A stretch of DNA of 64,000 bases from Methylocystis sp. (GCF_021731785.1 NZ_JAKFWS010000031.1:1-64000), one strand, 5' to 3'; shown: positions 7,779-56,781, counted from the stretch's first letter. Notes: generated from the sequence alone by a model not told the origin. Numbers and translations: made by a program.

Positions 7779-7833
7779 GATCCTTCGCCTCTTTCAGGCA
7801 AAAGAAATCTGCTCGCCGAAATGGCGCCGACTC

Positions 7834-7922
7834 TTGACAGTGATTCGCGGAAGTGAGACCTTGTGGTTGCTTAAGACACACAGGGGCTTCCGTTCGGCAA
7901 CGATCGGGGGCCTCTTTCTTTT
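7834..7922 (+). ncRNA. Counter-transcribed RNA (incompatibility RNA) between repB and repC
   Basis: The repB-repC gap on the strand opposite the rep genes has a consensus -35 (TTGACA, 7834-7839) and, some 45 bp on, a strong intrinsic terminator. The RNA itself probably starts near 7865 and ends near 7922. The antisense RNA of repABC plasmids lies here, pairs with the repC leader and limits RepC synthesis, which also makes it an incompatibility determinant. The -10 is poor, so the start site is uncertain. Confidence 0.75.
7882..7922 (+). terminator. Intrinsic terminator of the ctRNA
   Basis: AGGGGCTTCCG (7882-7892) can pair over all eleven positions with CGGGGGCCTCT (7905-7915) if three G-U pairs are allowed, followed by TTCTTTT. 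On the opposite strand those positions would be A-C mismatches, so the stem favours plus-strand RNA. Confidence 0.8.
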
Positions 7923-7996
7923 GCTGCTATCTCCTCGGTGAGTTAGTTACGCGGGTCGGCAACGCTCTCGCAAAAAACGCAAGTATGGGCATAATT

Positions 7997-14466: not shown

Positions 14467-14469
14467 GCG

Positions 14470-15636
14470 ATGGTGATGGAGGCGTGGTGGCGAGAACAGA
14501 GCGAACTCGATAAGGACCAGCTCGATGTTATCGGATTGCCCGATGAAGGTAGTTTTCTTGTGAAAGGCCCGCCCGGCTCTGGAAAAACGAATTTGCTTTT
14601 GCTGAGGGCAAACTACCTGACGACTCGCTCACACCCCAATCTTGCGGTCATCGTGTTCAACGCAACGCTGCGTGAATTTATCCGGTCAGGTGCCCAGCGG
14701 TACGATTTTGACGTGCGCAATGTGCAAACTAGCGCGTCGTTGTTGGACGGGTTGTTGCGTGAAGCTGGGGTGCGAATAGAGCTGACCGGTGAATTCGAGA
14801 CGGACCGACTGACTCGAATTGAGCTGGCAGAACGCGTTCTTGTGCGACCGGGCCGTGCTCCACTCTACGATGTGTTGCTTGTCGACGAAGCTCAGGATTT
14901 TCTGCCGCGAGAGATCGTCCTGTTCCGGCACCTTACCCACGATCTCTTCATGGTGGCGGACAGCCGCCAGCGAATCTACGCCGGCGAGTCGCCGATGGAG
15001 GCGCTCGAACAGGCTTCCGAGAGGGTCTTAACCTTGCGATATCACTATCGAAACGGACCGCCGATTTGCGAGCTCGCCGACGCGATCGGCCGAACGTTCT
15101 CAGCCGGGTATGATCCCATTCTTCCAACTTGCAACTACAATTCGCCGGCGCTTAGGTCGAGCGTGAATGTCTTTCGTGGAACTTTGGCGCAGCAGGCCGC
15201 TGAGATTGCCCAGCGATTGACGCTCCAGCGGCGGACCTATCCGGAGGGCTTCCTAGGCGTGGTCTGTCCACGCGCCGCCGATGTTCGCGGCGTCGCCATT
15301 GCTTTGGAAGGAGTTGGCTTGGGGAACCTTTTATGCGTGCAGGACCGCGAGGGGCGATATCAAGCTATTCAACCTGACAAACCGATATGGGTCTCCACCA
15401 TCCACGGCGCCAAAGGCTTGGAATTCAGAGCGCTTCATTTCGCGGCCGCGGAGACCACGGTCTCGGCCGGCGCGGGACAAAAACGGCTTGCATACACTGC
15501 TGTCACCCGAGCAAAGACCGCTTTATCGGTATATCACGATGCGCACCTTCCGGGATATTTGGATGCAGCGGTTCAAAAATTTCGGCAGGCACCTGCAGAA
15601 CGCCCGGGCATAGGAGCAGCGTTTGGACGCCGTTAA
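14470..15636 (+). CDS. Small UvrD/PcrA-like superfamily 1 helicase or ATPase
   Basis: A 388-residue P-loop protein with Walker A GPPGSGKT (33-40), Walker B DEAQDF, motif IV-like RYHYRNGPP, STIHGAKGLEF (motif V) and YTAVTRAK (motif VI). These are SF1A helicase motifs, but the length is about half that of UvrD, and the accessory 1B/2B subdomains look shrunken or missing. It may be a DNA-stimulated ATPase rather than a processive helicase. The start follows the kinase stop by three bases and its end overlaps the next gene, so kinase, helicase and the following gene are translationally linked. Confidence 0.85.
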   Translation: MVMEAWWREQSELDKDQLDVIGLPDEGSFLVKGPPGSGKTNLLLLRANYLTTRSHPNLAVIVFNATLREFIRSGAQRYDFDVRNVQTSASLLDGLLREAGVRIELTGEFETDRLTRIELAERVLVRPGRAPLYDVLLVDEAQDFLPREIVLFRHLTHDLFMVADSRQRIYAGESPMEALEQASERVLTLRYHYRNGPPICELADAIGRTFSAGYDPILPTCNYNSPALRSSVNVFRGTLAQQAAEIAQRLTLQRRTYPEGFLGVVCPRAADVRGVAIALEGVGLGNLLCVQDREGRYQAIQPDKPIWVSTIHGAKGLEFRALHFAAAETTVSAGAGQKRLAYTAVTRAKTALSVYHDAHLPGYLDAAVQKFRQAPAERPGIGAAFGRR

Positions 15637-17011
15637 TCGCAATCTCTGGACAGCAGCTTTACGTCGCGAGCAATTGGTTGAATTGCTCGAAGGCCGTGGA
15701 CCTCGCCCGACGCGTGACGACCTGACGAGGCTTCGCCATACACATGGCGGCAAGGAGTTGTTGGGCGTTTGGGTTGCCGAGGATGATCGCTCCTTGTCCC
15801 CGCTGCCGCAAATTCTAATTGCGGAGCGGACGGTGCTCGATGACCTTTTTGCTTGGACCGCATCCTATCTGCGTGCGTTGGGTCCGCTCAGTGCCATCAC
15901 GCGGCCCCTTACCCCCAATCAGTTCGAAGCTCTCCTGGAGCGCAGGCTGCCACAGGAGCCTTGGAAAATTGCGGGAGGGGCAGTTGGCCTTGTCATCTGC
16001 GAAGTGATGACGCTCAGCGAAGGCATCGAGATCGAAGGCGCGGCAGGGGCCACGCCAAATAGCACGCTTTCGTTCGCGATCTTGCGTGCGTGGTCGCTCG
16101 GGCTTCCCCTCGACGCGATCAACGAGATATCTGATGGTTTTACTCGTCTTTCCCATGAGGTGCAGCGGTTGCTGCCCAAAAATATCGTCCGCGGGGTGGA
16201 GGAGATCTCTATTTCTCTCTTAGGTGCCGATTGCGATGGCGGCCGCATAGGCCTGCCGCCGCAACGCGCACGCCATTGGATGCATGATCTGCGGTCAGGC
16301 GCAAATATTTACGAACTAGGCCGTGAGGTCTTGCGTCAGTCTACCGATCTGTTGAGTAGCCATGACGTTGTGCATCTCGAAGAAATGACGGCAGAGAAGC
16401 GCGTGCAATTTTTTGACGCGGTGGCCCCTTCACTCGTCGCATCTGTGGCCAATGAGAATCGCCTTGATTCTGCCTTCGCTCTCGCCTTGGCCGCTTTTAT
16501 CTGCCGACCAGGATTAGAACAGCAGGCCAGCCTCCTAACGGAGCACGCTCAACCGCTGCCTGAGTCCTGGCTTTGGCTAGGAGCTTTGCAGGCCTTCGCT
16601 CCGATATCAGACGTGCTCTCAGTCGGTTCCGGCGCAGGATGGCGCATTGCACGCGAACTATTTCGTCCTGAAGACCCTTGGGCAGCGCCGAGGGCCGACG
16701 CAGCTCTTACCGAGATTGACGTTTTGTCTCGAAGCAATTCAAAGATATTTCAACGATTACTGGGTAGATCGCGCCTCGATGTCGAGATCTACCCCATGAT
16801 AACGACTGCGATTCGAGGAACGAACGCCGCAGCAGACCAACGACGCAATGAAGAAAGCACCCGCGCTGAGTATGTCGCGTCCCGCGACGCTGCTGCCTCA
16901 GGAAAATTGGAGCTGGTTGAGGCCAGCTTAGAAGAGTCGCTGCGCTTGGTGCGCGGCCTGCGCCGCTACGATGGAGGGCCTGGCAGCAAACCAACTCGAC
17001 GTCGCCGATGA
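15623..17011 (+). CDS. Unknown protein coupled to the helicase
   Basis: A 462-residue protein I do not recognise. The frame overlaps the end of the helicase by 14 bases and opens with TTG. It looks helical throughout and has no transmembrane segment or obvious catalytic motif. Landmarks are ELLEGRGPRPTRDDLTRL near the start, an EALLERRLPQEPWKIAGG stretch, the segment EEMTAEKRVQFFDAVAPSLVASVANENRLDSAFALALAAFI, and a basic C-terminus (GGPGSKPTRRRR) that could bind nucleic acid. Tight coupling to the kinase and helicase suggests a scaffold or target of the pair. A gap of 150 bp with a TATAAT box separates it from the nuclease gene. Confidence 0.75.
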   Translation: MDAVNRNLWTAALRREQLVELLEGRGPRPTRDDLTRLRHTHGGKELLGVWVAEDDRSLSPLPQILIAERTVLDDLFAWTASYLRALGPLSAITRPLTPNQFEALLERRLPQEPWKIAGGAVGLVICEVMTLSEGIEIEGAAGATPNSTLSFAILRAWSLGLPLDAINEISDGFTRLSHEVQRLLPKNIVRGVEEISISLLGADCDGGRIGLPPQRARHWMHDLRSGANIYELGREVLRQSTDLLSSHDVVHLEEMTAEKRVQFFDAVAPSLVASVANENRLDSAFALALAAFICRPGLEQQASLLTEHAQPLPESWLWLGALQAFAPISDVLSVGSGAGWRIARELFRPEDPWAAPRADAALTEIDVLSRSNSKIFQRLLGRSRLDVEIYPMITTAIRGTNAAADQRRNEESTRAEYVASRDAAASGKLELVEASLEESLRLVRGLRRYDGGPGSKPTRRRR

Positions 17012-17161: not shown

Positions 17162-18436
17162 TTGAGACCCTTTCGCTTCATTCATGCCGCCGACATTCAC
17201 CTTGATAGCCCATTGACGGGGCTCGCCGGCTATGAGGGACCTGCTGTCGAGTGCATTCGTAGGGCAACGCGCCAAGCCTTCGACAATCTGATCAGCGAGG
17301 CGATTGACCAAGAAGTTGGTTTTGTATTGATAGCCGGCGATCTGTATGACGGCGACTGGCGCGATTATCAGACCGGCTTATTCTTCATCCGCCAAATGGG
17401 CAGGCTCGCGAAAGTGAACATTCCTGCGTTCGTACTCCACGGCAATCACGATGCAGAAAGCCAAATTACTCGGAGACTCACGCTTCCCGAAGGCGTCAAC
17501 GTGTTTTCCACTCGGAAGCCCGAGACATTCACACTTGAGGAACTTGGCGTTGCGCTTCACGGTCAAAGCTTCCGGCAGCGCAACGTTACCGACAACCTGG
17601 TCCCTGCTTACCCGGAGCCGGTTGAAGGGGCTTTCAACATCGGTATTCTGCACACCGGCATGGGTGGCATGGGCGGGCACGCGAATTACGCACCCTGTGC
17701 GCTCCATGAACTCGTCGCCAAGGGCTACGATTACTGGGCGCTTGGTCACGTTCACCAAGGCGTCATTCTGCACCAGAATCCCCATGTGGTTTTCCCCGGC
17801 AACCTACAGGGACGGCATATTCGGGAAACGGGCCCCAAGGGCGCATACCTTGTCTCTGTCGAGGATCACAAAATCGTCGAATTAGGCCTGCTGTACACCG
17901 ATGTCGTTCGCTGGGCTCATCTCCAGGTCAATGTCGATGGCTGCGACCGCAATGCCGATGCACTAGAGCGCGTGCGGCGCGCTATCGAACAAGCGATAGA
18001 AAGCGATGCCGATGATCGTCTTCTTGCGTGCCGTATCGAGCTAACCGGCCGCACCGAAATCCATGATCATCTACTGATATCGACCGAACATCTTCTCGCC
18101 GAGGCTCAGGCCGCTGCACTGGGGTTCGGCGACGCTGCGGCTTGGATCGAACGCGTCGTCGTTTCCACGGAACCCGTAATCGACCCCGCGGTGCTTGCTG
18201 TGCGTGAGGATGCGCTGGGGGAATTTCACCGCATGTTGGGAGATGCCGCTGCCGACACCGAATTGCTCGGTCAGCTAGAAGCAGATCTCAGCGAACTCGT
18301 CCGCAAGCTCCCATCCGAGTTACGTAGTGATATAGAGGATGCTGCCCTAAAAGCAGCTGTTCAGGCTGATTATCCCACTCTCATCACGCACGTACGCGGC
18401 TACCTCAATGCGCGCCTCACGGTTCAGGAGGGCTGA
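17162..18436 (+). CDS. Mre11/SbcD (YhaO)-like metallophosphoesterase nuclease
   Basis: A 424-residue protein with the full metallophosphoesterase signature: AADIHLDSP (Asp11, His13), AGDLYDGD (Asp60), HGNHDAES (Asn95-His96), LHTGMGG and GHVHQG. This is the nuclease of Mre11-Rad50 and of the Bacillus YhaO/YhaN pair. It is smaller than many SbcD proteins but has the capping C-terminal region (ADTELLGQLEADLSELVRKL). The start is a TTG with TAGGA 9 bases upstream. The next gene begins 3 bp after its stop, as expected for a nuclease-ATPase complex. It should act on DNA ends in a complex with the following ATPase. Confidence 0.9.
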   Translation: MRPFRFIHAADIHLDSPLTGLAGYEGPAVECIRRATRQAFDNLISEAIDQEVGFVLIAGDLYDGDWRDYQTGLFFIRQMGRLAKVNIPAFVLHGNHDAESQITRRLTLPEGVNVFSTRKPETFTLEELGVALHGQSFRQRNVTDNLVPAYPEPVEGAFNIGILHTGMGGMGGHANYAPCALHELVAKGYDYWALGHVHQGVILHQNPHVVFPGNLQGRHIRETGPKGAYLVSVEDHKIVELGLLYTDVVRWAHLQVNVDGCDRNADALERVRRAIEQAIESDADDRLLACRIELTGRTEIHDHLLISTEHLLAEAQAAALGFGDAAAWIERVVVSTEPVIDPAVLAVREDALGEFHRMLGDAAADTELLGQLEADLSELVRKLPSELRSDIEDAALKAAVQADYPTLITHVRGYLNARLTVQEG

Positions 18437-18439
18437 GCC

Positions 18440-21400
18440 ATGAGGCTTCAGCGACTTGATCTTCTGCGTTATGGCCGCTTCACCAATAGGCATCTCGAAT
18501 TGCCCGTGAGCAATTCCGATATCCATATAGTGTTTGGACCGAACGAGGCAGGCAAATCGACCGCACTTTCCGCCATAGAGGACTTGCTGTTCGGTGTTGA
18601 CAACAACTCGCGCTATAACTTCCTGCACGATTATGGAAGCATGAGAATCGGCGCCATCCTGGAGAACAGCGGGATGACCTTGGAGGTTAGGCGTCGCAAG
18701 GGCCACAAGGATACGTTACTGACAGCAGACGAGGTGCCCATCGCGGGGGGGAACGGCGCACTAGCCGCATTTCTTGCGGGTGCCGACCGGCCTTTCTTCG
18801 AACGTATGTTTAGTCTCGATCATGAGCGTCTTCGCACGGGCGGTCGCGAGATCCTCGAAGCGCAGGACGAAGTTGGCCAGATGCTATTCTCCGCCGGCGC
18901 TGGTCTCTCTGGGCTGCGAGACCGACTCAAAGCGCTCACCGAGGAAGGAGATAGCCTATGGGCTTCCCGGAAGGCAGGGCACAGGAAATATTACCAAGCT
19001 TTGGAACGTCTGGATGGCGCCGACAAGGCGCTTCGTGAACACACGGTCACGGCCAGCAAGTGGCAAGAGGTAAAACGTGCGTATGACGATGCGCATGAGG
19101 CCTATGATGGCCTTGAGAAACAGATCGAAGACATTTCGGCGGAGCAGCGAAAGCTGAGCCGTATTCGACGCGTCTACCGGGATATCCGAAAGATTGCCGG
19201 TCTAGTCGACGAGATCACTGCCTTAGGCGAAGTCATCCCGCTGCCCGAGGATGCGAGTTCGAAACTGGAAGCGGCGGAGCGCGAACACGCTGGCGCCACT
19301 GCGCGCGTCGAAACTCTTAAAGAACAGCTCGAAGGTGAGCGGAACCAACGTGATGCGCTGGAATGCAATGAGGAGCTTCTGATCCGAGAAGACGACATCC
19401 AGCAGTTCCATAAACGCCGAATCGAAGTGCAAAAAGAGAAGGCCGATTTGCCCAACCGCCGAGCCGATCTCGCGAGTGCAGAGGCAAATTTGCGGCGGCT
19501 AGCCGAGGAGCTGGAGTGGGAAGCTGACGACATAGAAACGCTGGTGAAGCGGATTCCGTCGCGCGCTAAGGCCACAGCTCTTCGCACGCTCCTTAACTCC
19601 CGCGGCGAGCGAATGTCAGACACTACGAATGCAAAGGTCGCAGTTGATGAATTGGAAAGTCAGATCGCTGACGTGCAGCAAGAGCTTGATGGCATGGGTG
19701 CGCCTATAGACGTGTCGAAGCTAGCGGCCATCGTCAAAGCGACACGTGAGAGCGATGATATCACATCACGAATAAATGCCGCCGAAAGCGAGACACGGGA
19801 GGCAAAAGCAGCCATCCAACGTCGCCTCAAAGCCCTTAAGCCGCTAGTTGACGAAGAAGAGACGTTGGCGTCAACGCCGGTGCCGGCACGCGACACGGTA
19901 CAAAATCATCGTGATGCCCGGCGCAGCGCCGACCAAAAGATACAGGCTTGTCGCGAGCGTATCCGAGCCGCCAATCAGGATTTGGCAAGATACCGCAAGG
20001 CGCATGAGCGGCTTGCCCACGACGAGGATGCAGTTGCCCCAAGGGACATTGCCGACGCACGCGAATTGCGCGACACTGGTTGGTCGTTAATTCGCCGGCA
20101 CTATGTCGAAGGTGAGTCTGTCCCTGATGCTGAAATCCGCGCGTTTGCAAGCACCGAAGGTGATCTGACCAACAGATATGAGGCGGCTGTCAGTGCCGCC
20201 GACACTTTGGTCGATCGTCGATTCGACAATGCTCAGGCGGCAGCTCAGATTGTCATTACCTCCCGGCAGATCGTAGAGCAACAGGAATTGTTGGAAGGCT
20301 TGCGTGAAGAAGAAAGTGCGCTTGCAGAGGAAAGCCGCACGTTGGATTCTGCCTGGCAAGAGATGTGGGCTGGGGCTCTTTTCAAGCCGCTAGGACCCGA
20401 TTTGATGCTGGAATGGTTTACCTCACGGAGTGAGATACTTGAGGCTATCGCGTGCCGTGCGACAGCCGAGCGCAAACTGGCGACTCTCCGCGGCGAGGAG
20501 ACAGACGCCAAGGCTCGCATTCTTGCAGAATTGGCTGTTGTCGCTGCCGAGACCGAAGCTCTCTACGACCAACCGCTACGGATCGTCATGGAAGCTGCAA
20601 TCGCTGTTCAAACCCGGCATGAAAATGATGCCGCCAATAGGCGCCAATTGGAAGAACGGGTTCGCAAGATGAAAGCCGAAGCTGTCCGCAAGCGCGCAGC
20701 GTTAGAAACGGCAGCAGCGGCATGGGGCAATTGGCAGACTGAGTGGCTTGCTGCGCTTAAACTCGTTGGCGTGGCTGCTGACACACAGCCCGAGGCAGCC
20801 AGTACGCAGCTTGACGCCATTGATCGGGTGCGGGAGATCGCGGTCGAAATCAATCAACTGCGCCACGAGCGGATCGAGAAAATTGAAAACGATATCGACG
20901 TCTTCGGTCAGGACGTCGAAGCCCTCGTGGCCATTGTTGCAAATGATCTTACGAAAACAGGCTCGGAGGACGCAATTCTTGAGCTAGAGCGCCGTCTTGA
21001 GAGCGCGAAACGAATACGCGAGCAGCAGAAGAGCAAGGATGCGGCCATTTCATCCCTGCAAGAAAAGATCGATGGATGCGTGGCTTCGGGGCGTCAGGCG
21101 CGTGAGACGATTAGCCACCTCCAAGAATCTGCTGGTGTGACTGATATTGATCAGCTCAAAGCTGCTATCCACAAGTCCGATAAGTTGAGGGAACTGGAAA
21201 GCGGACGTTCTTCGGTTATGGACGCGCTTGCACGGGAAGGCGACGGACTATCGCTGGCTGAGTTGAATAAGGAATGCGAACCCGTTGATGTCGATCAAGT
21301 GGGTGCCCGTGAGGAGTCGCTTGAACAGGAACTGAAGGAATTACGCGGTCGGCTAATGGAGGCCTCAGAACACCAAACCCAGACTCGAATCGCATTCGAG

Positions 21401-21991
21401 GCTATTGGCGGGGACGACCGCGCTGCGGAAGCTGCGGCGGTCAGACAAGCAGCGCTCGCCGAACTTAGGGAGGTCGCTGCACAATACGTTCGCGTTCGAT
21501 CCGCCGCCACTATGCTCCAATGGGCCATTGAGCGCTACCGCCGCGAGAAGCAGGCTCCGCTTCTCAAACGTGCCGGAGAAATTTTCGCCACGCTTACCAG
21601 CGGTTCTTTCAAGGATCTACGGGTCGAGTTCGATCAACACGACCATGCTCAACTGGTCGGTCTTCGCCCCGACGGGAAGCAAGTCCGCGTTGGCGGGATG
21701 AGCACGGGTACAGCCGATCAACTCTATTTAGCGCTGCGGGTTGCCTCGCTAGAAGATTATCTTGGCCTCACGAACGCTCTTCCGTTTGTCGCCGACGACC
21801 TTTTTATTAATTTTGATGATACGCGCGCGTCGGCAGGCTTTGAAGTTCTTGGCCAATTGGCACGCAAGACTCAGATTCTGTTTTTTACCCACCACCGGCA
21901 TTTGGTCGAAATTGCCCAAGCAACCCTTGGACAATCGGTAGCGGTCGTCTCCTTGGTAGAGGAAGCAGCTGCTGCTGCTGCGGAAAATTAG
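18440..21991 (+). CDS. Rad50/SbcC-like (YhaN-type) coiled-coil ATPase
   Basis: An 1183-residue SMC-class ATPase. Walker A GPNEAGKST (33-41) is followed by about 1000 residues of coiled-coil and charged helical sequence, and then a C-terminal head with the motifs RVGGMSTGTADQLYLALRVA (ABC signature) and FVADDLFINFDD (Walker B) plus HHRHLV. No CxxC zinc hook is visible in the middle, which points to the YhaN subfamily rather than canonical Rad50/SbcC. The protein should clamp DNA and control the adjacent nuclease. It starts three bases after the nuclease stop and ends 145 bp before the next, still larger, SMC-like ATPase. Confidence 0.9.
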   Translation: MRLQRLDLLRYGRFTNRHLELPVSNSDIHIVFGPNEAGKSTALSAIEDLLFGVDNNSRYNFLHDYGSMRIGAILENSGMTLEVRRRKGHKDTLLTADEVPIAGGNGALAAFLAGADRPFFERMFSLDHERLRTGGREILEAQDEVGQMLFSAGAGLSGLRDRLKALTEEGDSLWASRKAGHRKYYQALERLDGADKALREHTVTASKWQEVKRAYDDAHEAYDGLEKQIEDISAEQRKLSRIRRVYRDIRKIAGLVDEITALGEVIPLPEDASSKLEAAEREHAGATARVETLKEQLEGERNQRDALECNEELLIREDDIQQFHKRRIEVQKEKADLPNRRADLASAEANLRRLAEELEWEADDIETLVKRIPSRAKATALRTLLNSRGERMSDTTNAKVAVDELESQIADVQQELDGMGAPIDVSKLAAIVKATRESDDITSRINAAESETREAKAAIQRRLKALKPLVDEEETLASTPVPARDTVQNHRDARRSADQKIQACRERIRAANQDLARYRKAHERLAHDEDAVAPRDIADARELRDTGWSLIRRHYVEGESVPDAEIRAFASTEGDLTNRYEAAVSAADTLVDRRFDNAQAAAQIVITSRQIVEQQELLEGLREEESALAEESRTLDSAWQEMWAGALFKPLGPDLMLEWFTSRSEILEAIACRATAERKLATLRGEETDAKARILAELAVVAAETEALYDQPLRIVMEAAIAVQTRHENDAANRRQLEERVRKMKAEAVRKRAALETAAAAWGNWQTEWLAALKLVGVAADTQPEAASTQLDAIDRVREIAVEINQLRHERIEKIENDIDVFGQDVEALVAIVANDLTKTGSEDAILELERRLESAKRIREQQKSKDAAISSLQEKIDGCVASGRQARETISHLQESAGVTDIDQLKAAIHKSDKLRELESGRSSVMDALAREGDGLSLAELNKECEPVDVDQVGAREESLEQELKELRGRLMEASEHQTQTRIAFEAIGGDDRAAEAAAVRQAALAELREVAAQYVRVRSAATMLQWAIERYRREKQAPLLKRAGEIFATLTSGSFKDLRVEFDQHDHAQLVGLRPDGKQVRVGGMSTGTADQLYLALRVASLEDYLGLTNALPFVADDLFINFDDTRASAGFEVLGQLARKTQILFFTHHRHLVEIAQATLGQSVAVVSLVEEAAAAAAEN

Positions 21992-22045: not shown

Positions 22046-22063
22046 GTTCGTCTTTAGACGAAC
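22046..22063. promoter_or_regulatory. Inverted repeat before the SMC-S24 gene
   Basis: GTTCGTCT-TT-AGACGAAC has perfect 8-bp arms and sits about 75 bp upstream of the SMC-like gene, inside a 145-bp gap that also has a longer imperfect repeat (ATTACC...GGTAAT). It could be an operator for a repressor or an RNA hairpin controlling readthrough from the previous gene. Confidence 0.5.
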
Positions 22064-22136: not shown

Positions 22137-25100
22137 ATGGGAATATCGTTAGCAGAAGCGACCGGGTTGCTTTTGGCCGGTACGAAGCTCGCCTGGAACA
22201 AATATAAGGATCACAAGGCAGGCTCAATCACCCTCGACAAACCCGAGCAGCGTCGCTTGCTTGAATTCCTGCTTGCCGCTGATTCCAGCAAGGTCGCCAG
22301 CGGTGACGAGACCCTATTCGCCGGCCTTGTCGCGGTCTGGGAAAACAAGGACCATGACCCAGCGAAAGCCAAAGCGAACGCCGTCGGTAAGGCGAGCACG
22401 CAGTCGTGGCGACTAGCTCGCATCGAGGCTTTCGGCTTCGGCGGTCTGACCATCTTTGGCGGCAAACCGTTTGACCTCTACGTTGGTGGCAACAACTGGT
22501 GCCTTGAGGGGCAGAACGGCTCCGGCAAGACCTCGCTCGTGAGCGCGATCCTCTGGGCGCTAACAGGTAAACGCATCCGCGAACATGAAGGGCCGGTAGA
22601 CGAACGCGGTGAGCGCGAGGATGTCGAAAGCGACGATGGGACGAAAGTTGGTAACTGGCCGCCGCTGGCAGCCTATCCGACGACCATTGCAGACTTACGA
22701 AAACAAGCTGAAGTGTGGGTGCGGCTTACCTTCAAAGCAGCTGACGGCGACACGGCAACAGCCTATCGCCGAATGGTTAGCCCGTTGCTTGGCAACGCCC
22801 AGCTAGAAGAGCAGATCGACGACCGCCTGAAAGCGGCGCTCCGCCTTGCAGAAATCGGTGTTTTGATGCCGGCGCGGCTTGCGAAGATCGGCTTCGGGAG
22901 AAGCAGCCTAACGCTCTATGAGGCGGTGAAGCAGCTGACCGGCCTCGATCAGCTATCCGACATTGCCGAAGGCGTTACAGCCTTCGGTGCTGGTAACCGC
23001 AAGTTCATGAAATACGCCAAGGACCAAGGCATAGAGAATTACGAACGTAAGTTCGCCGATAATATCGCCAGCGCGAAACAGTTGGCGGAGGAGTTCGACT
23101 TTAAGCTGCCCGAGACCATCAGACTCGGCGAAAAGGAAATCGACGAAACGCTCAAGGCGGCAGCAAAACGGGCATCCGACGGCGCGGGTAAGCATCTTGA
23201 GACGCTGAAGAACGAAATCCCCGCTACCATCGACACGACCACAGCCGAGGGTCGCAACACCATTAAAACGGCAGTATCTAGTGCGCGCGGTCTTGTCACA
23301 CAGGGACCGAAGTCTATCCCGCTATTTCAGACGTGGAAGGCTTTGACCGACGCCGCTACTGCCTCGGATTTCGCCAACCTACCGGCTGCCTTGGAAACGG
23401 CCAAGGCGAACCTAAAGAAAGCTTTGGAATGGCACGACCGCCAGACAGCTGACGTCAAACTGCGCCTGAAGGCGCTGGCTGCGCAGAGCTTCATTCCGGT
23501 CAAGGATGCCGACGCCGATTGCCCACTATGTACGTCGCCGCTCGATAACGAAAAGAAACGAGCGCTAGCGGTCGAGCTGGAGGAACTGAAGACCAATGCC
23601 GACGCTGCTGAACGCAAAATTGCCGACGTGTGCCGCAGTATCCAAGAGGCGGTGACGGCTACGGTGCCCGTGGCTATCCGCAATTCGCGAACCACTATCG
23701 ACAAGATGGAGCCTGCGGAAGCCTACGCCGTCGCCATGCAGGAGAAGTTTGTCACGGACGAACCGTTCTCGAACGTCCTCACCGGCCTCGCGGCTTCGGC
23801 AAAGACGCTGGTCGAGGATCAAAAGGGTGCACTTCCGCACTTCACCTATGCCGAGCTCACGCCGACAAAAGGCGAACCAGAGTCGGTGATGCAGCTACGG
23901 CGCGAAATTCACGCGCTGGAACGTCTGATCGCATTGGTGGAATGGTGGAAGACCGCGCGCCCCGCTTTCAGCGATGCATGGAGCGCGCTGATCGGCAAGA
24001 AGCAAGAGGATGGGATTTTTCCGGCCCATAGCGTGGAAGGTAAGCTGGCTGTGCTTGAACAGGCGCTGGGTCATGCCCGACCGCTGGATGATCTATCCAA
24101 GCACCTAACGCACGCTGCAACGGCAGCGACGACGTGGGTCCGAATCGACACCGTTCAAAAAACGCGCGAAGCGATCAAAGACGCGCTGGAACCCCTCAAG
24201 GCCATGCGAGTGCTGGTCGCGGCGGAAACGGCCAGCTCTATTGCCGGGCTGTCTGGCACCATCATTGCCGTCTGCGAGCGCATTTGCTTGAAGGAGCGAC
24301 TTGCCTATGAGGAAGCGGTTATTGGCAGGAAGGAAGTCAGCGTTACCGGTAGCTTCAGCTCCGGCATGCGCATCAATGCAGCGCTCGTCGCCAACACCTC
24401 GTGGCTGCGCGCGATCCTATGGTCGTTCGTCTTCGCCCTACGCGAAGAGACGCTTAAGGCGATAGGATTCAATCCGTTGCCGCTGATGGTCCTCGATGAT
24501 CCGCAAGGGACCTTTGATCCGCGCAATAAGCGCAAATGGGCACAGGAGCTGGTGCGCTGCGCCAACATGCCGACCACCGATTTGCTCGGCGCGCAGCTCA
24601 TCGTGGTGACACACGAGCGTAACTTCTACCAAATGATGATTGATCATGAAAAATTCCTTGCGCAGCAAGGCCTCATCGGCGGCGTGAATAAGGTTTCCGG
24701 AGTCGCCACCGTCGCCAACGGTGGCGAGCTTCAGCGGGTCTATAGTGAAGCCAAGGCAAATAACAACGACGCCAAGGCTCGTGAGTATATCCGTAAGGTG
24801 CGCATTTACTGCGAAGACCTTATCAAGTTCATGCTGCGCAGTGTCAGCAATCGAATCCCAGACATGTCGCTTAATGAGCTTAAGGAGGAGCTGAAGAAGC
24901 TTTGCAAGGCGCATGTCGCACCGTTCGACCGTAAGGCGTTCGAGACGCTTATCAAGGCCCTTAACGAGAGCCAGAAAGCCGTCCAGTATATCAACGAGCC
25001 GCACCATAAAGATGATGAGAGCTTCGGCGTCGCCGAGGCTGATGTGGTCAAGGAGTATTGGGACAAGACCCTGCTCGACAAAATTCACACCGCGTTCAGC

Positions 25101-26003
25101 GTCTTCGACACTTTCGATCTATACACAGGCGAACCGCGCACGTTCCCGTGGGCGAAAAACGTCATCGAATTCCCGGATGGCCATAAGAGCAAGGTCAAGG
25201 AATCTGAAATGCAGCAGACCGGCATCGCGGCGGCAGCAAAAACCGACGGCCGTGCCGGCGACGGCCTCTTAACCGTGAAGGAATGGGATTCGGGCGACAA
25301 GGTTGTCCTGCCGAACCATGATGTATTTCAGCTCGCGGCGGGCACGCTCGACCCCGTGGCCGGCATCGGCGATCTTATCATCGTCAGCAACTACGCAACA
25401 ATCAACCCGCGCAACCTGGTGGTGGCCGTTTTGGGAAGCGCGCTATTGGCGCGCCGCTTTAACAAGCCAGAGAACCATTCAGAAATCGTTGTGCTTACCG
25501 GGCAAGCCGTTGACCCGTCCGCGCTGCCCCCGCCAGTGATCGTCCAGCCTGATACCGATTTCCGCAAAATTGTCGGTACACTATTCACGTCGCATCTCTT
25601 GCCGGTCCCACCGATTGATCCGGAGCGCGAGTTCGTCGCAGTACCTGACCCGGATATCTTAGACGAAACACTGAAAGGCGCACGACTATTCAAGGTAGAA
25701 GGGCGCAGCGCCGAGCCCATTGCTCTTGAAGGGCAGTTCCTCATCACCCGCGACAAGCCTGTAAAAGCGAACGAAATTGCGTCACTCGATGGACGACTGG
25801 TCGTGGGCATCGACGAAGATGGCGCACGGTATTTCAAGCGGCTTCGGTGTCACGACAAGATCGTGGTGTTGGAGAGCCTGAACCCAGACGGGCTAACAGC
25901 GGCGGAGGTCCTGAGCTTGGACGGGTCGCATTCCTTCCCGAAAATCACGGAAGCGCTTGAAGTCATCGGAGTTCTTTTTGAGCTGCCAAATTCTAAATCA
26001 TGA
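22137..26003 (+). CDS. SMC-like zinc-hook ATPase with C-terminal S24/LexA-like peptidase folds
   Basis: A 1288-residue protein from the ATG at 22137 (a GTG 45 bases upstream is an alternative). The N-terminal head has LEGQNGSGKTSL (Walker A about 125-132); CPLC (462-465) is a zinc hook flanked by helical arms; LMVLDDPQGTFDP (near 787) is Walker B. After about residue 1050 two segments resemble the S24 peptidase fold. The second reads VEGRSAEP, GQFLI, DGRLVVGIDEDGARYFKRL, VVLESLNP and VIGVLFELP, with Ser1191 and Lys1234 at a spacing compatible with the Ser-Lys dyad of repressor-type S24 proteins. The first has Thr1070 and Arg1106/1107 instead and is probably inactive. This fusion is new to me. 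It may couple DNA sensing to proteolysis, of itself or of a partner. Confidence 0.82.
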   Translation: MGISLAEATGLLLAGTKLAWNKYKDHKAGSITLDKPEQRRLLEFLLAADSSKVASGDETLFAGLVAVWENKDHDPAKAKANAVGKASTQSWRLARIEAFGFGGLTIFGGKPFDLYVGGNNWCLEGQNGSGKTSLVSAILWALTGKRIREHEGPVDERGEREDVESDDGTKVGNWPPLAAYPTTIADLRKQAEVWVRLTFKAADGDTATAYRRMVSPLLGNAQLEEQIDDRLKAALRLAEIGVLMPARLAKIGFGRSSLTLYEAVKQLTGLDQLSDIAEGVTAFGAGNRKFMKYAKDQGIENYERKFADNIASAKQLAEEFDFKLPETIRLGEKEIDETLKAAAKRASDGAGKHLETLKNEIPATIDTTTAEGRNTIKTAVSSARGLVTQGPKSIPLFQTWKALTDAATASDFANLPAALETAKANLKKALEWHDRQTADVKLRLKALAAQSFIPVKDADADCPLCTSPLDNEKKRALAVELEELKTNADAAERKIADVCRSIQEAVTATVPVAIRNSRTTIDKMEPAEAYAVAMQEKFVTDEPFSNVLTGLAASAKTLVEDQKGALPHFTYAELTPTKGEPESVMQLRREIHALERLIALVEWWKTARPAFSDAWSALIGKKQEDGIFPAHSVEGKLAVLEQALGHARPLDDLSKHLTHAATAATTWVRIDTVQKTREAIKDALEPLKAMRVLVAAETASSIAGLSGTIIAVCERICLKERLAYEEAVIGRKEVSVTGSFSSGMRINAALVANTSWLRAILWSFVFALREETLKAIGFNPLPLMVLDDPQGTFDPRNKRKWAQELVRCANMPTTDLLGAQLIVVTHERNFYQMMIDHEKFLAQQGLIGGVNKVSGVATVANGGELQRVYSEAKANNNDAKAREYIRKVRIYCEDLIKFMLRSVSNRIPDMSLNELKEELKKLCKAHVAPFDRKAFETLIKALNESQKAVQYINEPHHKDDESFGVAEADVVKEYWDKTLLDKIHTAFSVFDTFDLYTGEPRTFPWAKNVIEFPDGHKSKVKESEMQQTGIAAAAKTDGRAGDGLLTVKEWDSGDKVVLPNHDVFQLAAGTLDPVAGIGDLIIVSNYATINPRNLVVAVLGSALLARRFNKPENHSEIVVLTGQAVDPSALPPPVIVQPDTDFRKIVGTLFTSHLLPVPPIDPEREFVAVPDPDILDETLKGARLFKVEGRSAEPIALEGQFLITRDKPVKANEIASLDGRLVVGIDEDGARYFKRLRCHDKIVVLESLNPDGLTAAEVLSLDGSHSFPKITEALEVIGVLFELPNSKS

Positions 26004-26898: not shown

Positions 26899-27761
26899 TC
26901 AGGCCGCACGAGCGGAGACAGTCGGATATTGTTTCGCCCAGTTCCACGGCAGCAGCTCATCAAGCCGGTGCGCGGGATGGTCGGCGATGCGAGAGAGGAC
27001 GTCAGCGAGCCAGGCCTGAGGATCGACGCCATTCATTTTGGCTGTGACGATGAGACTATACATTGCCGCAGCGCGCTGCCCGCCGCGATCGGATCCGCAG
27101 AACAGCCACGATTTTCTTCCCAGCGCGATGCCTCTTAGCCCTCGTTCCGCAGCATTGTTGGACAAGCACACGCGTCCGTCTTCGAGGAACAGCGTGAACG
27201 CGGTCCAACGCTTGAGCATGTAATTGACAGCCTTGACCAGGTCGTGCCCGCGCGAGAGCCCGGCCGCCTGCTCGCGCAAATAGCCCCACAGACCATCGAC
27301 CAGCGGCCGGCTCAGCGTGCGGCGGACCGCCAGGCGTTCTTCGGCGCACTTTCCATTGATGGACCGCTCGATCTCGAACAGGGCGTCGATGCGGCGCACG
27401 ACCTCGATCGCGATCGGAGACAAAGGGATTTCCTTTTTGCCCGCTGCCTTGCGGCGCGCGTTCTCCTCCAGATCAGCCATGGCGAAGAAGGGGCGCCGCG
27501 CGTGCACCCAGCACGCCGCCTCCTTGACCGGGCCGGGCTTGCGGTCCGCCAGATAGAGCCTGTTGTAACCGTCATAGGCATCCGCCTGCAGGATGCCGGC
27601 ATATCCCGCCAGATGCGCCTGCGGATGCTCGCCCCGGCGATCGCGCGAGTAATAGAACATCGCCGCCGGCGGCCCGGCGCCGCCGAACGGATTGTCGTCT
27701 CGAACATAAATCCAGCACCGCCCGGTATCGGTCTTGCCTTCGGCCAGAACCGGCACGGTCG
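26899..27761 (-). CDS. tnpC: IS66 transposase TnpC, 3' exon
   Basis: The C-terminal 287 residues of an IS66 transposase: [73 protein letters not shown] and [25 protein letters not shown]. The catalytic Asp-Asp-Glu residues should be those in YDG, the upstream exon and the NNAAERG helix. Joining base 31607 to 27761 gives the normal family sequence [13 protein letters not shown] and keeps frame (790 + 863 = 1653 nt), so splicing would restore a 550-residue transposase. The ORF track start (27786) lies within the intron. Confidence 0.88.
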
Positions 27762-27874
27762 GGCGAGTAGGCCGAGGGACTTTCACCCCCGGCCTCTCTC
27801 AGGTAGGGTCGGGGACTGGCGCGCCGGCATTGATCAGCTCGCGACCGAACCACGTTTCCAGCCCCCGCCACGTC

Positions 27875-27907
27875 GAACGCAGCATGCGGTTTTCCCGCAC
27901 TACGCTC
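27875..27907 (-). ncRNA. Group II intron domain V, inner intron
   Basis: GAGCGTAGTGCGG-GAAA-ACCGCATGCTGCGTTC folds as a 33-nt hairpin with a GAAA tetraloop and a bulged lower stem, the layout of domain V, the catalytic core that binds metal ions in group II ribozymes. Confidence 0.75.
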
Positions 27908-27939
27908 TCCTGTTTGTTTCGCCTCAAGGATTATGGGAC

Positions 27940-29241
27940 CTATCGTGCCGGAGCGACTTTCGAAGCGGGCCTTACAACTCGGTAGCCGTTAAAAAGCTTC
28001 AGAGTTTGGTACAACCAACTCCTAGTCCATCGCGTCCAGCCGAAGCCCTGTCGGTTCTTGGCTCTCATCATGTGGCGCCTGATCTTCTTTTCAACCCAGT
28101 CCTTTACCATTCCGAAGCACTTGCTGGCGTGCCCCACCGCAAAGTAGTTCACCCAACCGCGCAGCACCGGATTGATCAACTTGACGATCCGATCAACCGG
28201 TTGCGATTGGTGGCGGCGGAACACAGCCTTGAGCTTCCGTAGCAGCGCTGTCCGCTTTTTGAGTTTGGGCGTGTAATGAGCACGCCATACACCTCGCAGA
28301 CTGCGCATGCGGCGGAAGTCGAACCCCAGGAAGCCGAAACTTTCGCCTCGGCATAGATCCACGATTCGACTTTTCTCTTCGTTGATTTCGACCTGCAGTT
28401 TGGCGAGCTCTTGCCGCAACCGCTTCTCCACCGCCGCCATCAGCCAGTCATGTCGCGGGTGGGCGTCGACCAAGATCACCAGGTCGTCCGCGAATCTCGC
28501 GTATTCGACAGAGGTGTACTTGCCGTAACGCGTGACCTCTTTCGCGCGCTCCAGCATCTTATCAACCTCCGTGAGGTAGATGTTGCTGAGCAGCGGCGAA
28601 GCGACCCCGCCTTGCGGAACGCCTTGCTTTCCGTTGGATTTGAGCATGACCTTCAGCAGGTGCATCACGTCGTCATCATCCACCCGCTCGGCCACCTTCG
28701 CCAACAACCGATCATGTCGGACATTGTCGAAATAGCTGCGCAGGTCGATATCTATAACGCGTGTTTTCTGCTGAACGATGGCTCGCGCCACACGGTCCAC
28801 CGCTTCGTGAGCTGTCCGGCGGGGACGGTATCCAAACGACCCCGGCTGGAAGTCTGCCTCGAAGATAGGTTCCAATATGAGTTTGAGCGCACCCTGTACC
28901 ACCCGGTCGCGGATCGAGGGAATCGAAAGAACGCGGACCTTGCCGCCATCTTTCGGAATTTCCTGTCTCCGAGCCGGTAACGGCACGTAGGAGCGTTCGA
29001 CCAGTTCGTCCGCTATCTGCGCGAGGAAAGCCTCTACGCCTTGCGCTTCGATGGCCTCGAAGGTCACGCCGTCACTTCCCGGAGCGCCTTCGTTCTCTTT
29101 GGCCAGCGCATACGCCTCGCGTAGCGTTTCCAGTTTGCAGATATGGACATACAGTCCCCAGAACTTCCAGGACGTCTCAGCCTTCGCCTTGACGTATATT
29201 CTCCGCCGCAGGTCTTGCAAATCGATGGACGCCTTTGTCAT
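27940..29241 (-). CDS. ltrA: Group II intron reverse transcriptase/maturase, inner intron
   Basis: A 433-residue RT with the finger-palm motifs GAPGSDGVTFEAIEAQG, RVLSIPSIRDRVVQGALKLILEPIFEADFQPGSFGYRP, LRSYFDNVRHDRL, PQGGVASPLLSNIYL, ARFADDLVILV (catalytic FADD in place of YADD) and FLGFDFRR. A group II maturase X domain follows (LINPVLRGWVNYFAVGHASKCFGMVKDWVEKKIRRHM). No HNH endonuclease domain is present. It should help its own intron splice and retrohome. All core motifs are intact, so it could be active. Confidence 0.92.
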   Translation of the reverse strand: MTKASIDLQDLRRRIYVKAKAETSWKFWGLYVHICKLETLREAYALAKENEGAPGSDGVTFEAIEAQGVEAFLAQIADELVERSYVPLPARRQEIPKDGGKVRVLSIPSIRDRVVQGALKLILEPIFEADFQPGSFGYRPRRTAHEAVDRVARAIVQQKTRVIDIDLRSYFDNVRHDRLLAKVAERVDDDDVMHLLKVMLKSNGKQGVPQGGVASPLLSNIYLTEVDKMLERAKEVTRYGKYTSVEYARFADDLVILVDAHPRHDWLMAAVEKRLRQELAKLQVEINEEKSRIVDLCRGESFGFLGFDFRRMRSLRGVWRAHYTPKLKKRTALLRKLKAVFRRHQSQPVDRIVKLINPVLRGWVNYFAVGHASKCFGMVKDWVEKKIRRHMMRAKNRQGFGWTRWTRSWLYQTLKLFNGYRVVRPASKVAPAR

Positions 29242-29755
29242 CTCGTCCTTGCCTTCCTTATGGTCGGAGACTTCACAAACAGCAGGGCCCCTTTGCTCCG
29301 CGGACGTTATTCCGCTTCATCGCTCATACGGACCCATCCGCCACCCTCTCGTCTTCGATCGATTTCCCGGTTGGGCCGGTTATACGATCTACCCTGCTCC
29401 GGTGATTTCGCACCGGGACGAGGAGGGCTTCTCCAGTTGCTCGGCATGTCCTTGCCACCGTGCTGTCGCTTCCACCCCGCCGAAGTAAAGGAGCCGCTTC
29501 GGTCAGATTTCGGCTCCCCATGCTGCCTTCGCCCTACGGTTGCAGGCTCGACCTTCGGGGTTACTCACTTTCGAGGCCACTTTTGCGTTCACTTTCATTA
29601 CGGCCCGGTGACTCGTGATCTCCCCAGGGGAGATCTTGTCGATAGGCTTCAGAGTCTTGGTTTCCCGCCACCCTGCTATCCAAACTACGGGGCTTCTGAC
29701 TCTTACCCCGGCAGGTCTATCTCCTGCTGAACACGCCAGCTTTCGCTGGACACAC

Positions 29756-29788
29756 AACCGGGCGTGAGGCTCTCGCCTCACCCGGCTC
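29756..29788 (-). ncRNA. Group II intron domain V, outer intron
   Basis: GAGCCGGGTGAGGC-GAGA-GCCTCACGCCCGGTT is a near-perfect domain V hairpin with a GAGA loop. It is immediately followed by the GTGTG 5' end of the inner intron. Confidence 0.85.
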
Positions 29789-29791
29789 CCA

Positions 29792-31048
29792 TCAAGCGAG
29801 CCCGCCGCTTGCGCCAAGTTGCCAGTGCACAAACAATCTTGGGTTTTCGCGCGCTATCTTCGCGAGGAAAAGGCGCGCGCGTCCCAACCGATGGTGGAAG
29901 CGCTTGAACTTGCGTTTGATCCAGACGGCCAGCGTCTGATCGATATAGCGGACCACCGGATAGAGCGCGGAGCGCGTATATCGCCCGTAGTAAGCGATCC
30001 AGCCCCGAGTCATCGGGTTCAGTTCGCGAGCGACGTCGTCCAACGTCACCTCGGTTCGCTTACGCAATTTCAAGTCGCGGATCGTTGATCGCATCGCGTT
30101 CAGCGCAGGCTTGCTCACCGCCGGCGTAAACCCGCAGAACAGGTTCTGCGAGCGCGGGCCTTTTACGGATCGCGGCCTGAAGCAATATCCGAGAAAGTCG
30201 AACGCGACCGTCTCGTAATCGCCTTTTCGCCGATCGTCCTTGCAATAGACGATCTTGGTCTTCGAGGGATGCAGTTGCAGATGGCACTCCGCCAGTCGAG
30301 ACGCCAGCGCTTCTTTGACGATCCACGCCTCGTTCTCCGTCCGGCAGTGCACCAACCCGTCATCCGCATATCGACACCATCGCAAGTGCGGAAAGGCACG
30401 CGCCATCCAGAGGTCGAACGTGTAATGCATGAAGAGGTTGGCTAGGATCGGGCTCACAACGCCACCTTGCGGTGTGCCGCGTGTTCGCTCGGTCGTCGCA
30501 CCATCCTCTTGCAACATTGGGGCCGCCAGCCATCTTTCGATGTAGAGCAGCGCCCAAGGACACGTAACGTGTTTCCGGACAGCCCGCAGCAGCAACGCGT
30601 GGTCGATGTTGTCGAAGAGACCTTTGATGTCGAACTCCAGAACCCAATCATATTTCCAGCATCGCTCTCGCGTGACCCCAATAGCGTCGAGCGCGGATTT
30701 TCCGGGTCGATAGCCGTAGGAATCTGCCAGAAAGATTTCATCCAGAGCCGGTTCAATCATCTCTTTGACGACAGTCTGCGCCACGCGATCAGCCACGGTG
30801 GGCACTCCAAGGACCCGTTGGCCTCCACTCTTCTTCGGAATGGAGACGGCGCGCACCGGCGGCGGGAAATAGGCGCCCGAGCTCATTCGATTCCAGATCT
30901 TGTAGAGATTGCCCTTCAAGTCCGCTTCGAACTGCTCGATCGTCACTCCGTCGACGCCTGCTGCACCGTCCTTGGATCGCACTTGCAGATATGCTTCGTA
31001 CACTTGTCTCTTGTCGATCTTGAACGGCTTGCTTGGCGGGTTCATCAA
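29792..31048 (-). CDS. ltrA: Group II intron reverse transcriptase/maturase, outer intron
   Basis: A 418-residue RT, almost exactly RmInt1 IEP length. Motifs: GAAGVDGVTIEQFE, RVLGVPTVADRVAQTVVKEMIEPALDEIFLADSYGYRPGKSALDA, LEFDIKGLFDNIDHALL, GTPQGGVVSPILANLFMHY, CRYADDGLVH (catalytic YADD) and FDFLGYCFRPR. A short maturase domain ends the protein (LNPMTRGWIAYYGRYTRSALYPVVRYIDQTLAVWIKRKFKRF). No endonuclease domain is present, as in RmInt1-type introns that prime from nascent DNA. Its ORF lies in domain IV of the outer intron, before domain V. Confidence 0.92.
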   Translation of the reverse strand: MMNPPSKPFKIDKRQVYEAYLQVRSKDGAAGVDGVTIEQFEADLKGNLYKIWNRMSSGAYFPPPVRAVSIPKKSGGQRVLGVPTVADRVAQTVVKEMIEPALDEIFLADSYGYRPGKSALDAIGVTRERCWKYDWVLEFDIKGLFDNIDHALLLRAVRKHVTCPWALLYIERWLAAPMLQEDGATTERTRGTPQGGVVSPILANLFMHYTFDLWMARAFPHLRWCRYADDGLVHCRTENEAWIVKEALASRLAECHLQLHPSKTKIVYCKDDRRKGDYETVAFDFLGYCFRPRSVKGPRSQNLFCGFTPAVSKPALNAMRSTIRDLKLRKRTEVTLDDVARELNPMTRGWIAYYGRYTRSALYPVVRYIDQTLAVWIKRKFKRFHHRLGRARLFLAKIARENPRLFVHWQLGASGGLA

Positions 31049-31606
31049 CGTCCTCCTGTCGCCAGTTGCGTTAATGGTCCGCCGGCCTGATCCAACCCCT
31101 TCGCTCCGGCTCCATTACGAGCCCTCATCGCTACTACGAGTTGGTCCGTCCCAGTGCTCCGCTTCGGTACTCTCGCCTCACGGTCTTCTCCGCTTGGGCT
31201 TCTCCCTTTACATCGGAGCGACTGGTTCCTGCAGTTCCGCGGCGACGCCCGCATCCGATTCACGCCCCCTCAACGCCGGTCGTCGCTCGCCCGGTCATCA
31301 GGCATCTGGCGAGCTGATCCCAGAGGGACGACACACCCCTGGTTTTGACGACGCTTTCCACGTAACGACGCTTCATCGGTGGGTTCATTTTCATTCGTCT
31401 CTCGGACGCTTACCTGCTCGAGGTGTTCCTCGAACTTTGTCTCCAACGCTCACGACCGCGCCTCTTGAACGCAGCCGCTTGGAGTGGTTTGAGACCTGCT
31501 CCTGAAAGCCGATCCCGAGGGGCCAACCCTCATCGTCGCCGCAGCTTGTGCGCACAGAAATCTCAGACCATTGCGATCATCCTTCCTGTGCGCCTCTGCA
31601 GCACAC

Positions 31607-32396
31607 TATCGTCGCCATGCAGGCGTTCGGCCGCCATGACGTGAGTTTCTAGAAGGCGAAGGAGCGGATCGAGCGCCGTGCAGACCGAGCCCACCGCGTC
31701 GGCCATGGTCGACAGCGCGATCGGCACGCCTTCCAGCGCGTAGCGCTCGGCCTGACGGTTCAAAGGCTGGTGCTGACCGAACTTCTCGAACACAATCATC
31801 GCTAGGAGGCTCGCCCCCGCCCATCCTCGCGCGATAACATGGAACGGCGCTGGCGATTGGCTGATCTTCTCGCAATCCCGGCAGGTGAACTTCTCCCGAA
31901 CCGTTTCGATCACCTTCCACTGACGGAGCGTCGTTTCCAATGTGCGCGTCACATCCTCGCCAAGCTTACGCAGGCGAGCGCTCCCGCAGCATTCGCATGC
32001 CGTCGGCGGGTCGATCACCACGCGCTCACGAGGAAGGTGGTCGGGGAACGTATTGCGTTCGGGACGTTTGCGCGTAAATCCGGCGACCGTCGTCGTCATG
32101 GCGACAGCCTTTTCGGCCGCGATCTCGTCTTCCGTCGCGCCGGTTTCCAGCTCTTCGAAGGTGAGCGCTAGTTGATCGATCAGCCGCGCCGAGCGCTCCG
32201 ACCGCTGCCCGTAGACCTGACGCTCGAGTTTCGCGATCCGAAGCTTCTGCTGTGCGATCAGAGCCATATCTTCCGACGCTTTCGCGCGGGCGACCGCCAG
32301 TTCCGCGGCAACTTCCAGGCCATTGGTCTGCGCAACGGCCAGCGCCGCTTTCAGGGCGGCGTTTTCTTGGGCGAGAGCGGCGCGAGCGGCATCCAT
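31607..32396 (-). CDS. tnpC: IS66 transposase TnpC, 5' exon
   Basis: The N-terminal 263 codons (MDAARAALAQENAALKAALA; a coiled-coil leader; LRIAKLERQVYGQRSERSARLIDQLAL; a zinc-finger-like CECCGSARLRKLG ... FTCRDCEKI; and HVMAAERLHGDD). The ORF track carries on through the intron boundary for about 15 residues to a stop at 31563, which is not part of the transposase. An upstream in-frame Met at 32456 is possible but the coiled-coil leader begins at 32396. Confidence 0.88.
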
Positions 32397-32480
32397 GCGA
32401 CGAAGTGAATCATAACTTGCGTGATTTGAGGCGCCCAAAAATGCACGCAACCGCAATTTTTTCGACCCGATCCGCGCACG

Positions 32481-33235: not shown

Positions 33236-33596
33236 GATCATCGAGCCACTCTTCAGACAGCTATCTCCAATATCGAGTTCAAAACCAGGCGGCCGCCGGC
33301 GAAGGGATACGAATGAAGTGGGGCAGGCGATTTTCTATGAGATGTTTGGCGATCCAATATCTAATCCCCATGGTTACAAGACTGAAGAGCTTGGCTCTGT
33401 TTCTGACGTAAGGGACGGGACCCATGATTCCCCCAAATACGTCGAGGAGGCGTATCCACTTCTGACCTCGAAAAACTTCACTTCTGGAAAGATAGTACTC
33501 CAAGGTGCAAATCAAATATCCAAGCGAGATTATGCCAACATCAACAAGAGGTCGAAGGTCGACATAGGCGATATTGTTATGCCAATGATTGGCGCG
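33236..33596 (+). pseudogene. hsdS: hsdS fragment inverted relative to the type I RM operon
   Basis: The plus-strand frame reads AIFYEMFGDPISNPHGYKTEELG, RDGTHDSPKYVEEAYPLLTSKNFTSGKI and NKRSKVDIGDIVMPMIG, the linker and second target-recognition domain of a type I specificity subunit. It shows no likeness to the complete hsdS at 37544. It has lost both ends: IS66 lies on the left, and at about 33596 the frame passes into the antisense of the AIPR gene. This is a relic of a second specificity gene fused by rearrangement. Confidence 0.75.
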
Positions 33597-34429: not shown

Positions 34430-34539
34430 GGCAAGGCCCCATAGCGGAGGTGGTTGGAACTTGGTTGGCTTAGTCCCCGGGTTGCTGAACCCAAATGATT
34501 CCAGCTGGAGCGCACGCAGGTCATCGATCTCGACGCAAA

Positions 34540-56551: not shown

Positions 56552-56687
56552 GCCTGTTCGCCGAAAGCCCACGAACCGACGTCGCGACTTCATGAACTAA
56601 CAGCTGATTTTCAACGACGGTGGAGACAGGCGAGCAAACCAAAAAGCCGAGGCGTTGGCTGGCGCTCGAATCCGAAGCCTTGCTCAT

Positions 56688-56715: not shown

Positions 56716-56781
56716 AGGACGATTGGAAGCTCTATCCGAATCGAGGCGGTTATCTCCTCAATGGAAGCTTCAGATTGAACA

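Follow-up and report, generated by a model that had tools for sequence, protein, structure and literature searches.

Introduction

RloC is a zinc-hook, Rad50-like tRNase with the motif Arg-X3-Glu-X36-52-His, often with a Ser ahead of the His, and mutation of any residue of this triad abolishes its anticodon-nuclease activity (PMC2610378). The enzyme is activated by inducers of DNA breaks (PMC3874168) and its anticodon-nuclease domain is a member of the HEPN superfamily (PMC3710099). Here we describe a gene at positions 22137-26003 (+ strand) of a 64,000-nucleotide stretch of Methylocystis sp. DNA (GCF_021731785.1, NZ_JAKFWS010000031.1:1-64000; the window). On the strength of its sequence the 1288-amino-acid product is best described as a RloC-like ATPase-toxin to which a LexA-like control module is attached.

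The protein shares with RloC (zinc-hook anticodon nuclease; Pfam AAA_13, PADLOC PDC-S06) and PrrC a Rad50-like ABC ATPase with a CxxC hook in its coiled coil, followed in the same order by a DDP Walker B/D-loop, a TH switch and, as a candidate triad, R-x3-E...N-x2-[SA]-H, together with a setting among defence genes. It differs in length (1288 amino acids compared with approximately 720-830 in RloC), in a longer spacing between the Glu and the His, and in the possession of a tandem S24 module and an N-terminal region. The AAA_13 profile did not match the Methylocystis protein at E 0.1 and the LSEGE signature of RloC was likewise absent, N-x-S-x-L-R being found instead; the protein was therefore not classified as RloC.

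With LexA, UmuD and phage CI-type S24 proteins it has in common the S24 signature, a Ser-Lys dyad set in G-x-S-x-x-P and a C-terminal strand of the form V-x-G-V-L-F, and the G-x2-A-A of its first S24 copy aligns with the LexA cleavage region. Unlike those proteins, it carries two fused copies between which functions are apparently divided, does not keep the Gly after the cleavage-site Ala, and joins its S24 module to an ATPase rather than to a DNA-binding or polymerase-binding part. Weak whole-protein similarity to Lamassu LmuB (5.5e-13) and MADS mad3 (7.8e-12) in PADLOC stems from the coiled coil and the Rad50-like head. Lamassu pairs an SMC-like sensor with effectors, proteases among them (PMC10586767), whereas the effector-like domains here lie in the same chain. 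In Lamassu, LmuB is encoded with an LmuA effector and usually with LmuC. Membership of Lamassu was rejected, as the score was LmuB-like only and no LmuA or LmuC partner was identified among annotated or scanned neighbours at the loci examined. SbcC/Rad50 and YhaN have the same head and zinc-hook design and often a Mre11-type partner gene nearby; those proteins end after the head, whereas approximately 420 further residues with effector-like domains follow here. No description of S24/LexA combined with SMC, RloC or an anticodon nuclease was found in the libraries and openly licensed papers searched (preprints excluded), and a report may exist elsewhere.

Rad50-like ATPase and zinc hook

The frame at 22137-26003 was uninterrupted over 1288 codons and the product aligned with homologues at 18-70% pairwise identity. 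A Pfam scan of the protein returned AAA_23 (1.8e-10), Rad50_zn_hook (3.6e-4) and Peptidase_S24 (3.2e-4, residues 1177-1251), the latter two scores falling just under the Pfam gathering cut-offs. The ATPase N-lobe (22405-22900, + strand) contains the Walker A motif GQNGSGKTS at approximately residues 125-133, and the family profile matched Rad50 chains of the PDB at 5e-12. A zinc hook, CPLC, lies at the coiled-coil tip (23506-23547, + strand), where both C462 and C465 were invariant across 12 homologues. The size of the protein, the hook and the Walker A and B motifs had all been recognised in a first-pass annotation and are confirmed by the reading frame, the AAA_23 match and the invariant cysteines.

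The C-lobe (24340-24640, + strand) has invariant columns in N753-x-S-x-L-R, LDDPQGTFD and the His switch VTHERNF (H826), and aligned with the DDP and TH motifs of RloC. D787 and D788 are contained in the Walker B/D-loop, LMVLDDPQGTFDP. Comparison of the C-lobe profile with RloC gave a probability of 90%, against 35% for YhaN and 1% for SbcC, the YhaN and SbcC profiles having been built from two or three sequences each. By this measure the lobe appears to resemble RloC more nearly than SbcC or YhaN.

Candidate anticodon-nuclease domain

The first-pass account of the domains stood as regards the ATPase and the S24 tandem; it had overlooked a RloC-like R-x3-E...H domain between them, as well as recurrent Mre11/Rad50-type neighbours. 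Residues 862-1005 (24720-25151, + strand) make up this candidate RloC/PrrC-like anticodon-nuclease (HEPN-type) domain, in which only three columns were invariant: R889, E893 and H957, the last being the second His of N-x2-HH. The comparison set consisted of 12 RloC/AAA_13 proteins, all 12 with CxxC and 11 with the triad. Viterbi profile alignment placed R889, E893 and H957 opposite R679, E683 and H726, respectively, of the RloC homologue L040. With Walker B as the anchor, the alignment with RloC (probability 92%, E 5e-7) continued through the R-E-H domain, and none of 200 shuffles of the domain columns reached the real score of 52.75 (shuffle mean 44.4, maximum 51.1). When positions of residues 862-1288 were ranked by conservation, R889, E893 and H957 were all within the 12 top-scoring positions, as were S1191, P1194 and K1234 of the S24 module. 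The domain is a putative RNase.

Tandem S24/LexA-like copies

Two S24/LexA-like copies follow, copy 1 at approximately residues 1021-1152 (25197-25592, + strand) and copy 2 at approximately residues 1177-1286 (25665-25994, + strand). The first-pass annotation had proposed such a tandem, with the dyad missing from its first copy, and had placed S1191, K1234, T1070 and R1106/R1107 correctly; the spacing of the motifs in the two copies is indeed similar, 36 residues from T1070 to R1106 and 43 from S1191 to K1234. Copy-1 sequences matched Pfam S24 on their own in 14 of 15 cases and copy-2 sequences in 6 of 16, and S24 was the sole Pfam family with matches in at least two members of either copy. 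In the PDB the copy-1 profile matched chains of LexA and UmuD and no others (best E 2.6e-4), its alignment spanning LexA residues 76-166. Direct comparison of the copies with hhalign gave a probability of 95% and E 2.4e-8, the T1070 region lying opposite the S1191 region. Signal peptidase I belongs to the same clan as S24, and copy 2 yielded one weak match to it (E 0.7). A search for a stand-alone S24 tandem found none.

The residues of copy 2 that were invariant are S1191 (in GRSAEP), P1194, K1234 (in YFKRL), R1235 and G1278. Loss of the Ser or Lys among homologues had been set beforehand as a ground for abandoning the S24 reading; Ser1191, Pro1194 and Lys1234 were found without exception in the homologues that reach these positions, the median pairwise identity being 22%. 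Copy 1 is degenerate, T1070 and R1106 occupying the dyad positions. Across homologues its Ser position is held by Thr, Ser, Asn, Ala or Arg, and its Lys position by Arg in most, with loss in L036 and L024. Copy 1 was nevertheless present in all homologues covering the region. Its G-x2-A-A includes A1033, almost invariant, and A1034, invariant, which align with LexA A83-A84; this Ala-Ala at the position of the LexA cleavage site is retained in nearly all homologues, L036 and L024 included. The residue after the second Ala may be Ala, His, Phe, Arg, Gln, Ser or Leu, where LexA has Ala84-Gly85. Copy 2 lacks such a segment. A complementary relationship between the copies is thus suggested, copy 1 apparently supplying a cleavage-site segment without a dyad and copy 2 a dyad without the segment. 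Proteolysis by the copy-2 dyad, autocleavage, an S24 fold and an appropriate Ser-Lys geometry are all predictions from these alignments.

Distribution

Homologues were detected in 4 of 385, 3 of 399, 1 of 78 and 1 of 368 genomes sampled by class or phylum, counts that include the Methylocystis source genome where it was sampled, and approximately 20 family sequences were identified overall. The low counts indicate that the gene is rare and patchy. Its closest homologue (81%), which is frameshifted, occurs in a metagenome-assembled gammaproteobacterium from a bog. Further homologues, at 54% to approximately 18% pairwise identity, were located on plasmids of Sphingomonas, Phyllobacterium, Rhizobium, Bradyrhizobium, Mesorhizobium, Methylorubrum, Croceicoccus, Azospirillum and Pseudomonas; homologues are mostly plasmid-borne or among defence genes. 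The phage collection contained no homologue, and scans of viral contigs gave P-loop matches only, or nothing, with no viral homologue found. On several Bradyrhizobium plasmids (e.g. L039:9001-12893) the homologue and YhaN/YhaO-type neighbours are split into many ORFs, and the locus is therefore decaying there.

Gene start and upstream region

The ORF of homologue L020 starts with MAISFAEATRRLLSGNKL, compared with MGISLAEATGLLLAGTKL in the Methylocystis protein (MAISFAEAT... aligned with MGISLAEAT...), so that the ATG at 22137, rather than the GTG at 22092, is the likely start. The N-terminal region of approximately 90 amino acids ahead of the ATPase (22137-22404, + strand) has conserved residues L12, G15, L33 and R39, no Pfam match and no assigned function. 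An 18-bp inverted repeat, GTTCGTCT-TT-AGACGAAC, at 22046-22063 ends 73 bases upstream of the gene; it occurs once in the window, is a possible operator, and was absent from the upstream regions of homologues. The LexA-box patterns tried for an SOS box gave no match in the 250 bases upstream of 19 genes.

Gene neighbourhood

Directly upstream of the gene are a Mre11/SbcD/YhaO-type metallophosphoesterase (17162-18436, + strand; Metallophos 4.9e-12) and a YhaN/SbcC-type AAA_27 ATPase (18440-21991, + strand; AAA_27 1e-74), homologues of both of which lie beside related loci. A Mre11/Rad50-type pair was situated within 7 kb of the gene at 8 of 20 loci, two of the eight being close relatives, and the pairs were of two distinct types and in either orientation. 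The Methylocystis genome encodes nine metallophosphoesterases of all kinds in 4.2 Mb, giving a chance expectation of approximately 0.04 per locus. A functional link between the gene and the pair is likely, not obligate; an obligate operon partnership was ruled out, the pair being absent within the available flanks at 12 of 20 loci and occurring as two types in both orientations. In Sphingopyxis (L062:774-3847) the gene immediately after an ordinary RloC-like gene encodes a DNA repair exonuclease, a hint that RloC itself may also have Mre11-type neighbours. Defence or mobile neighbours at other loci were AbiEii, Shedu, reverse transcriptase, S8 peptidase-ATPase pairs and abortive-infection genes.

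Genes for a Ser/Thr protein kinase, a UvrD-like helicase protein and a 462-amino-acid protein without a Pfam match, at 13087-17011, are co-directional with the nuclease pair and the gene, and all of these possibly form one transcription unit. The window also contains repABC replication and partition genes (6405-10197) with a repABC S-element RNA (7776-7839), which identify the contig as a plasmid. Just downstream of the gene, at 26899-32456, is an IS66 transposase that is apparently split into a C-terminal part (26899-27786) and an N-terminal part (31563-32456); the interval contains a pair of group II intron maturases along with two group II intron RNAs that differ from each other, representing nested insertions. 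A type I restriction-modification locus (HsdR, HsdS, HsdM) with an AIPR gene and a 739-amino-acid HTH protein of no assigned function occupies 33530-43436, and another group II intron RNA signature (43533-44128; two Rfam matches) separates it from a UvrD helicase gene. At 50355-58023, UvrD-PDDEXK and PDDEXK proteins resembling AddA/AddB adjoin a UmuC-type polymerase, alongside which no UmuD gene was found.

Proposed mechanism and alternative explanations

We give about an even chance to a mechanism in which a DNA-end-sensing ATPase and a RloC-type RNA-cutting effector are combined with a LexA/UmuD-like pseudo-dimer acting as a proteolytic switch. The Rad50-like zinc-hook ATPase would sense ends of damaged or foreign DNA, which the neighbouring Mre11/Rad50-type nuclease possibly makes or presents, and would gate the downstream R-E-H domain (RloC/PrrC, HEPN type); this domain would stop translation by cutting tRNA or another RNA. 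The S24 tandem would form a single-chain pseudo-dimer with copy 2 (Ser1191-Lys1234) as the active protease half and copy 1 as a catalytically dead half, which may present its Ala-Ala segment for cutting. A cut, for which RecA filaments or the ATPase may be the stimulus, would then release or switch the toxin, whose presumed role is in defence. The sequences themselves establish the order of the domains, the conserved catalytic residues, the homology between the S24 copies and the recurrence of Mre11/Rad50-type neighbours, whereas both enzymatic activities, the site and trigger of the cut and the defence role are inferred. The presence of the R-x3-E...H domain makes the protein a probable toxin with an effector of its own, and for this reason the S24 module may be the switch and not the weapon.

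Several results weigh against this mechanism. The canonical ABC signature LSGGE is missing from the ATPase, where it is replaced by N753-x-S-x-L-R. Residues 862-1005 had no match in Pfam or the PDB, the E-to-H spacing is 62-71 residues in the homologues compared with 36-52 in RloC, and the R-E-H domain aligned to the RloC profile without the ATPase anchor gave a probability of 3%, which is not significant; its assignment as a RloC-type anticodon nuclease is consequently likely, not proven. Self-cleaving S24 proteins are recognised by an Ala-Gly cleavage site (PMC8565304), and a canonical scissile Ala-Gly was found in neither copy, so that self-cleavage of the LexA type may not occur at copy 1. 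AlphaFold2 gave no usable model for residues 980-1288 or 1142-1288 (pLDDT 31 and 42, from an alignment of two near-identical sequences), and with the latter model Foldseek listed several LexA chains, none a significant match. Of the ATPase-S24 reading in the first-pass annotation, the fusion, the degenerate copy 1 and the conserved copy-2 dyad were borne out; the ATPase-triggered cleavage of the protein itself or of a partner is hypothetical.

The missing Ala-Gly also accords with the S24 module being itself the effector: the ATPase would sense foreign DNA and copy 2 would cleave a host or phage protein, or else one of the subunits of the Mre11/Rad50-type nuclease encoded alongside, the R-E-H domain being only structural. 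The strictly conserved Ser-Lys dyad fits such a role, the recurrent nuclease neighbours offer possible substrates, and Lamassu provides the precedent of an SMC-like sensor with protease effectors (PMC10586767). We regard this explanation as unlikely, since characterised S24 proteins target themselves or close partners and R889, E893 and H957 are conserved as strongly as the protease dyad; moreover, the nuclease cannot be an obligate substrate when it is missing from the available flanks of 12 of 20 loci.

The modules of LexA and UmuD form dimers and attach to RecA filaments, and RecA-LexA structures are present in the PDB (8trg, 8s7g). The tandem could therefore be non-proteolytic, a docking or dimerisation platform that places the ATPase-nuclease on damaged DNA, for example by binding a RecA filament, and both the retention of a catalytically dead copy 1 in all homologues covering that region and the lack of a canonical cleavage site accord with this. 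A non-catalytic role is, however, hard to reconcile with invariance of Ser1191 and Lys1234 across homologues of approximately 20% identity, and it too seems improbable. In a further alternative, which we consider very unlikely, the middle domain would have no RNase activity: R889, E893 and H957 would serve structurally in a helical extension, and the protein would be a Rad50-like ATPase for DNA repair or plasmid maintenance, subject to SOS-type control. The domain has no independent match to HEPN or RloC, and repair genes are also present in the window (the UmuC-type polymerase, the AddA/AddB-like nucleases and SRAP); against this stand the invariance of R-x3-E...[SAP]-H, its Walker B-anchored register with RloC and the rare, patchy, plasmid- and defence-associated distribution of the gene.

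Implications

A bolder form of the proposed switch, tentative and in our estimation rather unlikely, is a new toxin class in which the activity of a RloC-type RNA-cutting ATPase would be set by a single-chain LexA pseudo-dimer, one copy serving as substrate and the other as protease, such that DNA damage or an invading replicon would trigger a cut within the chain, releasing or quenching the toxin. RloC and PrrC demonstrate that a nuclease able to stop translation can be held by a Rad50-like ATPase, and the restraint of such toxins and their coupling to DNA damage are incompletely understood. If the proposal is true, fusion with a LexA/UmuD switch would tie control of the toxin directly to cellular DNA-damage signalling. 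It would also represent an unusual case among S24 proteins, in which fused active and decayed copies provide a natural counterpart, within one chain, to the intermolecular cleavage known from UmuD-like enzymes.

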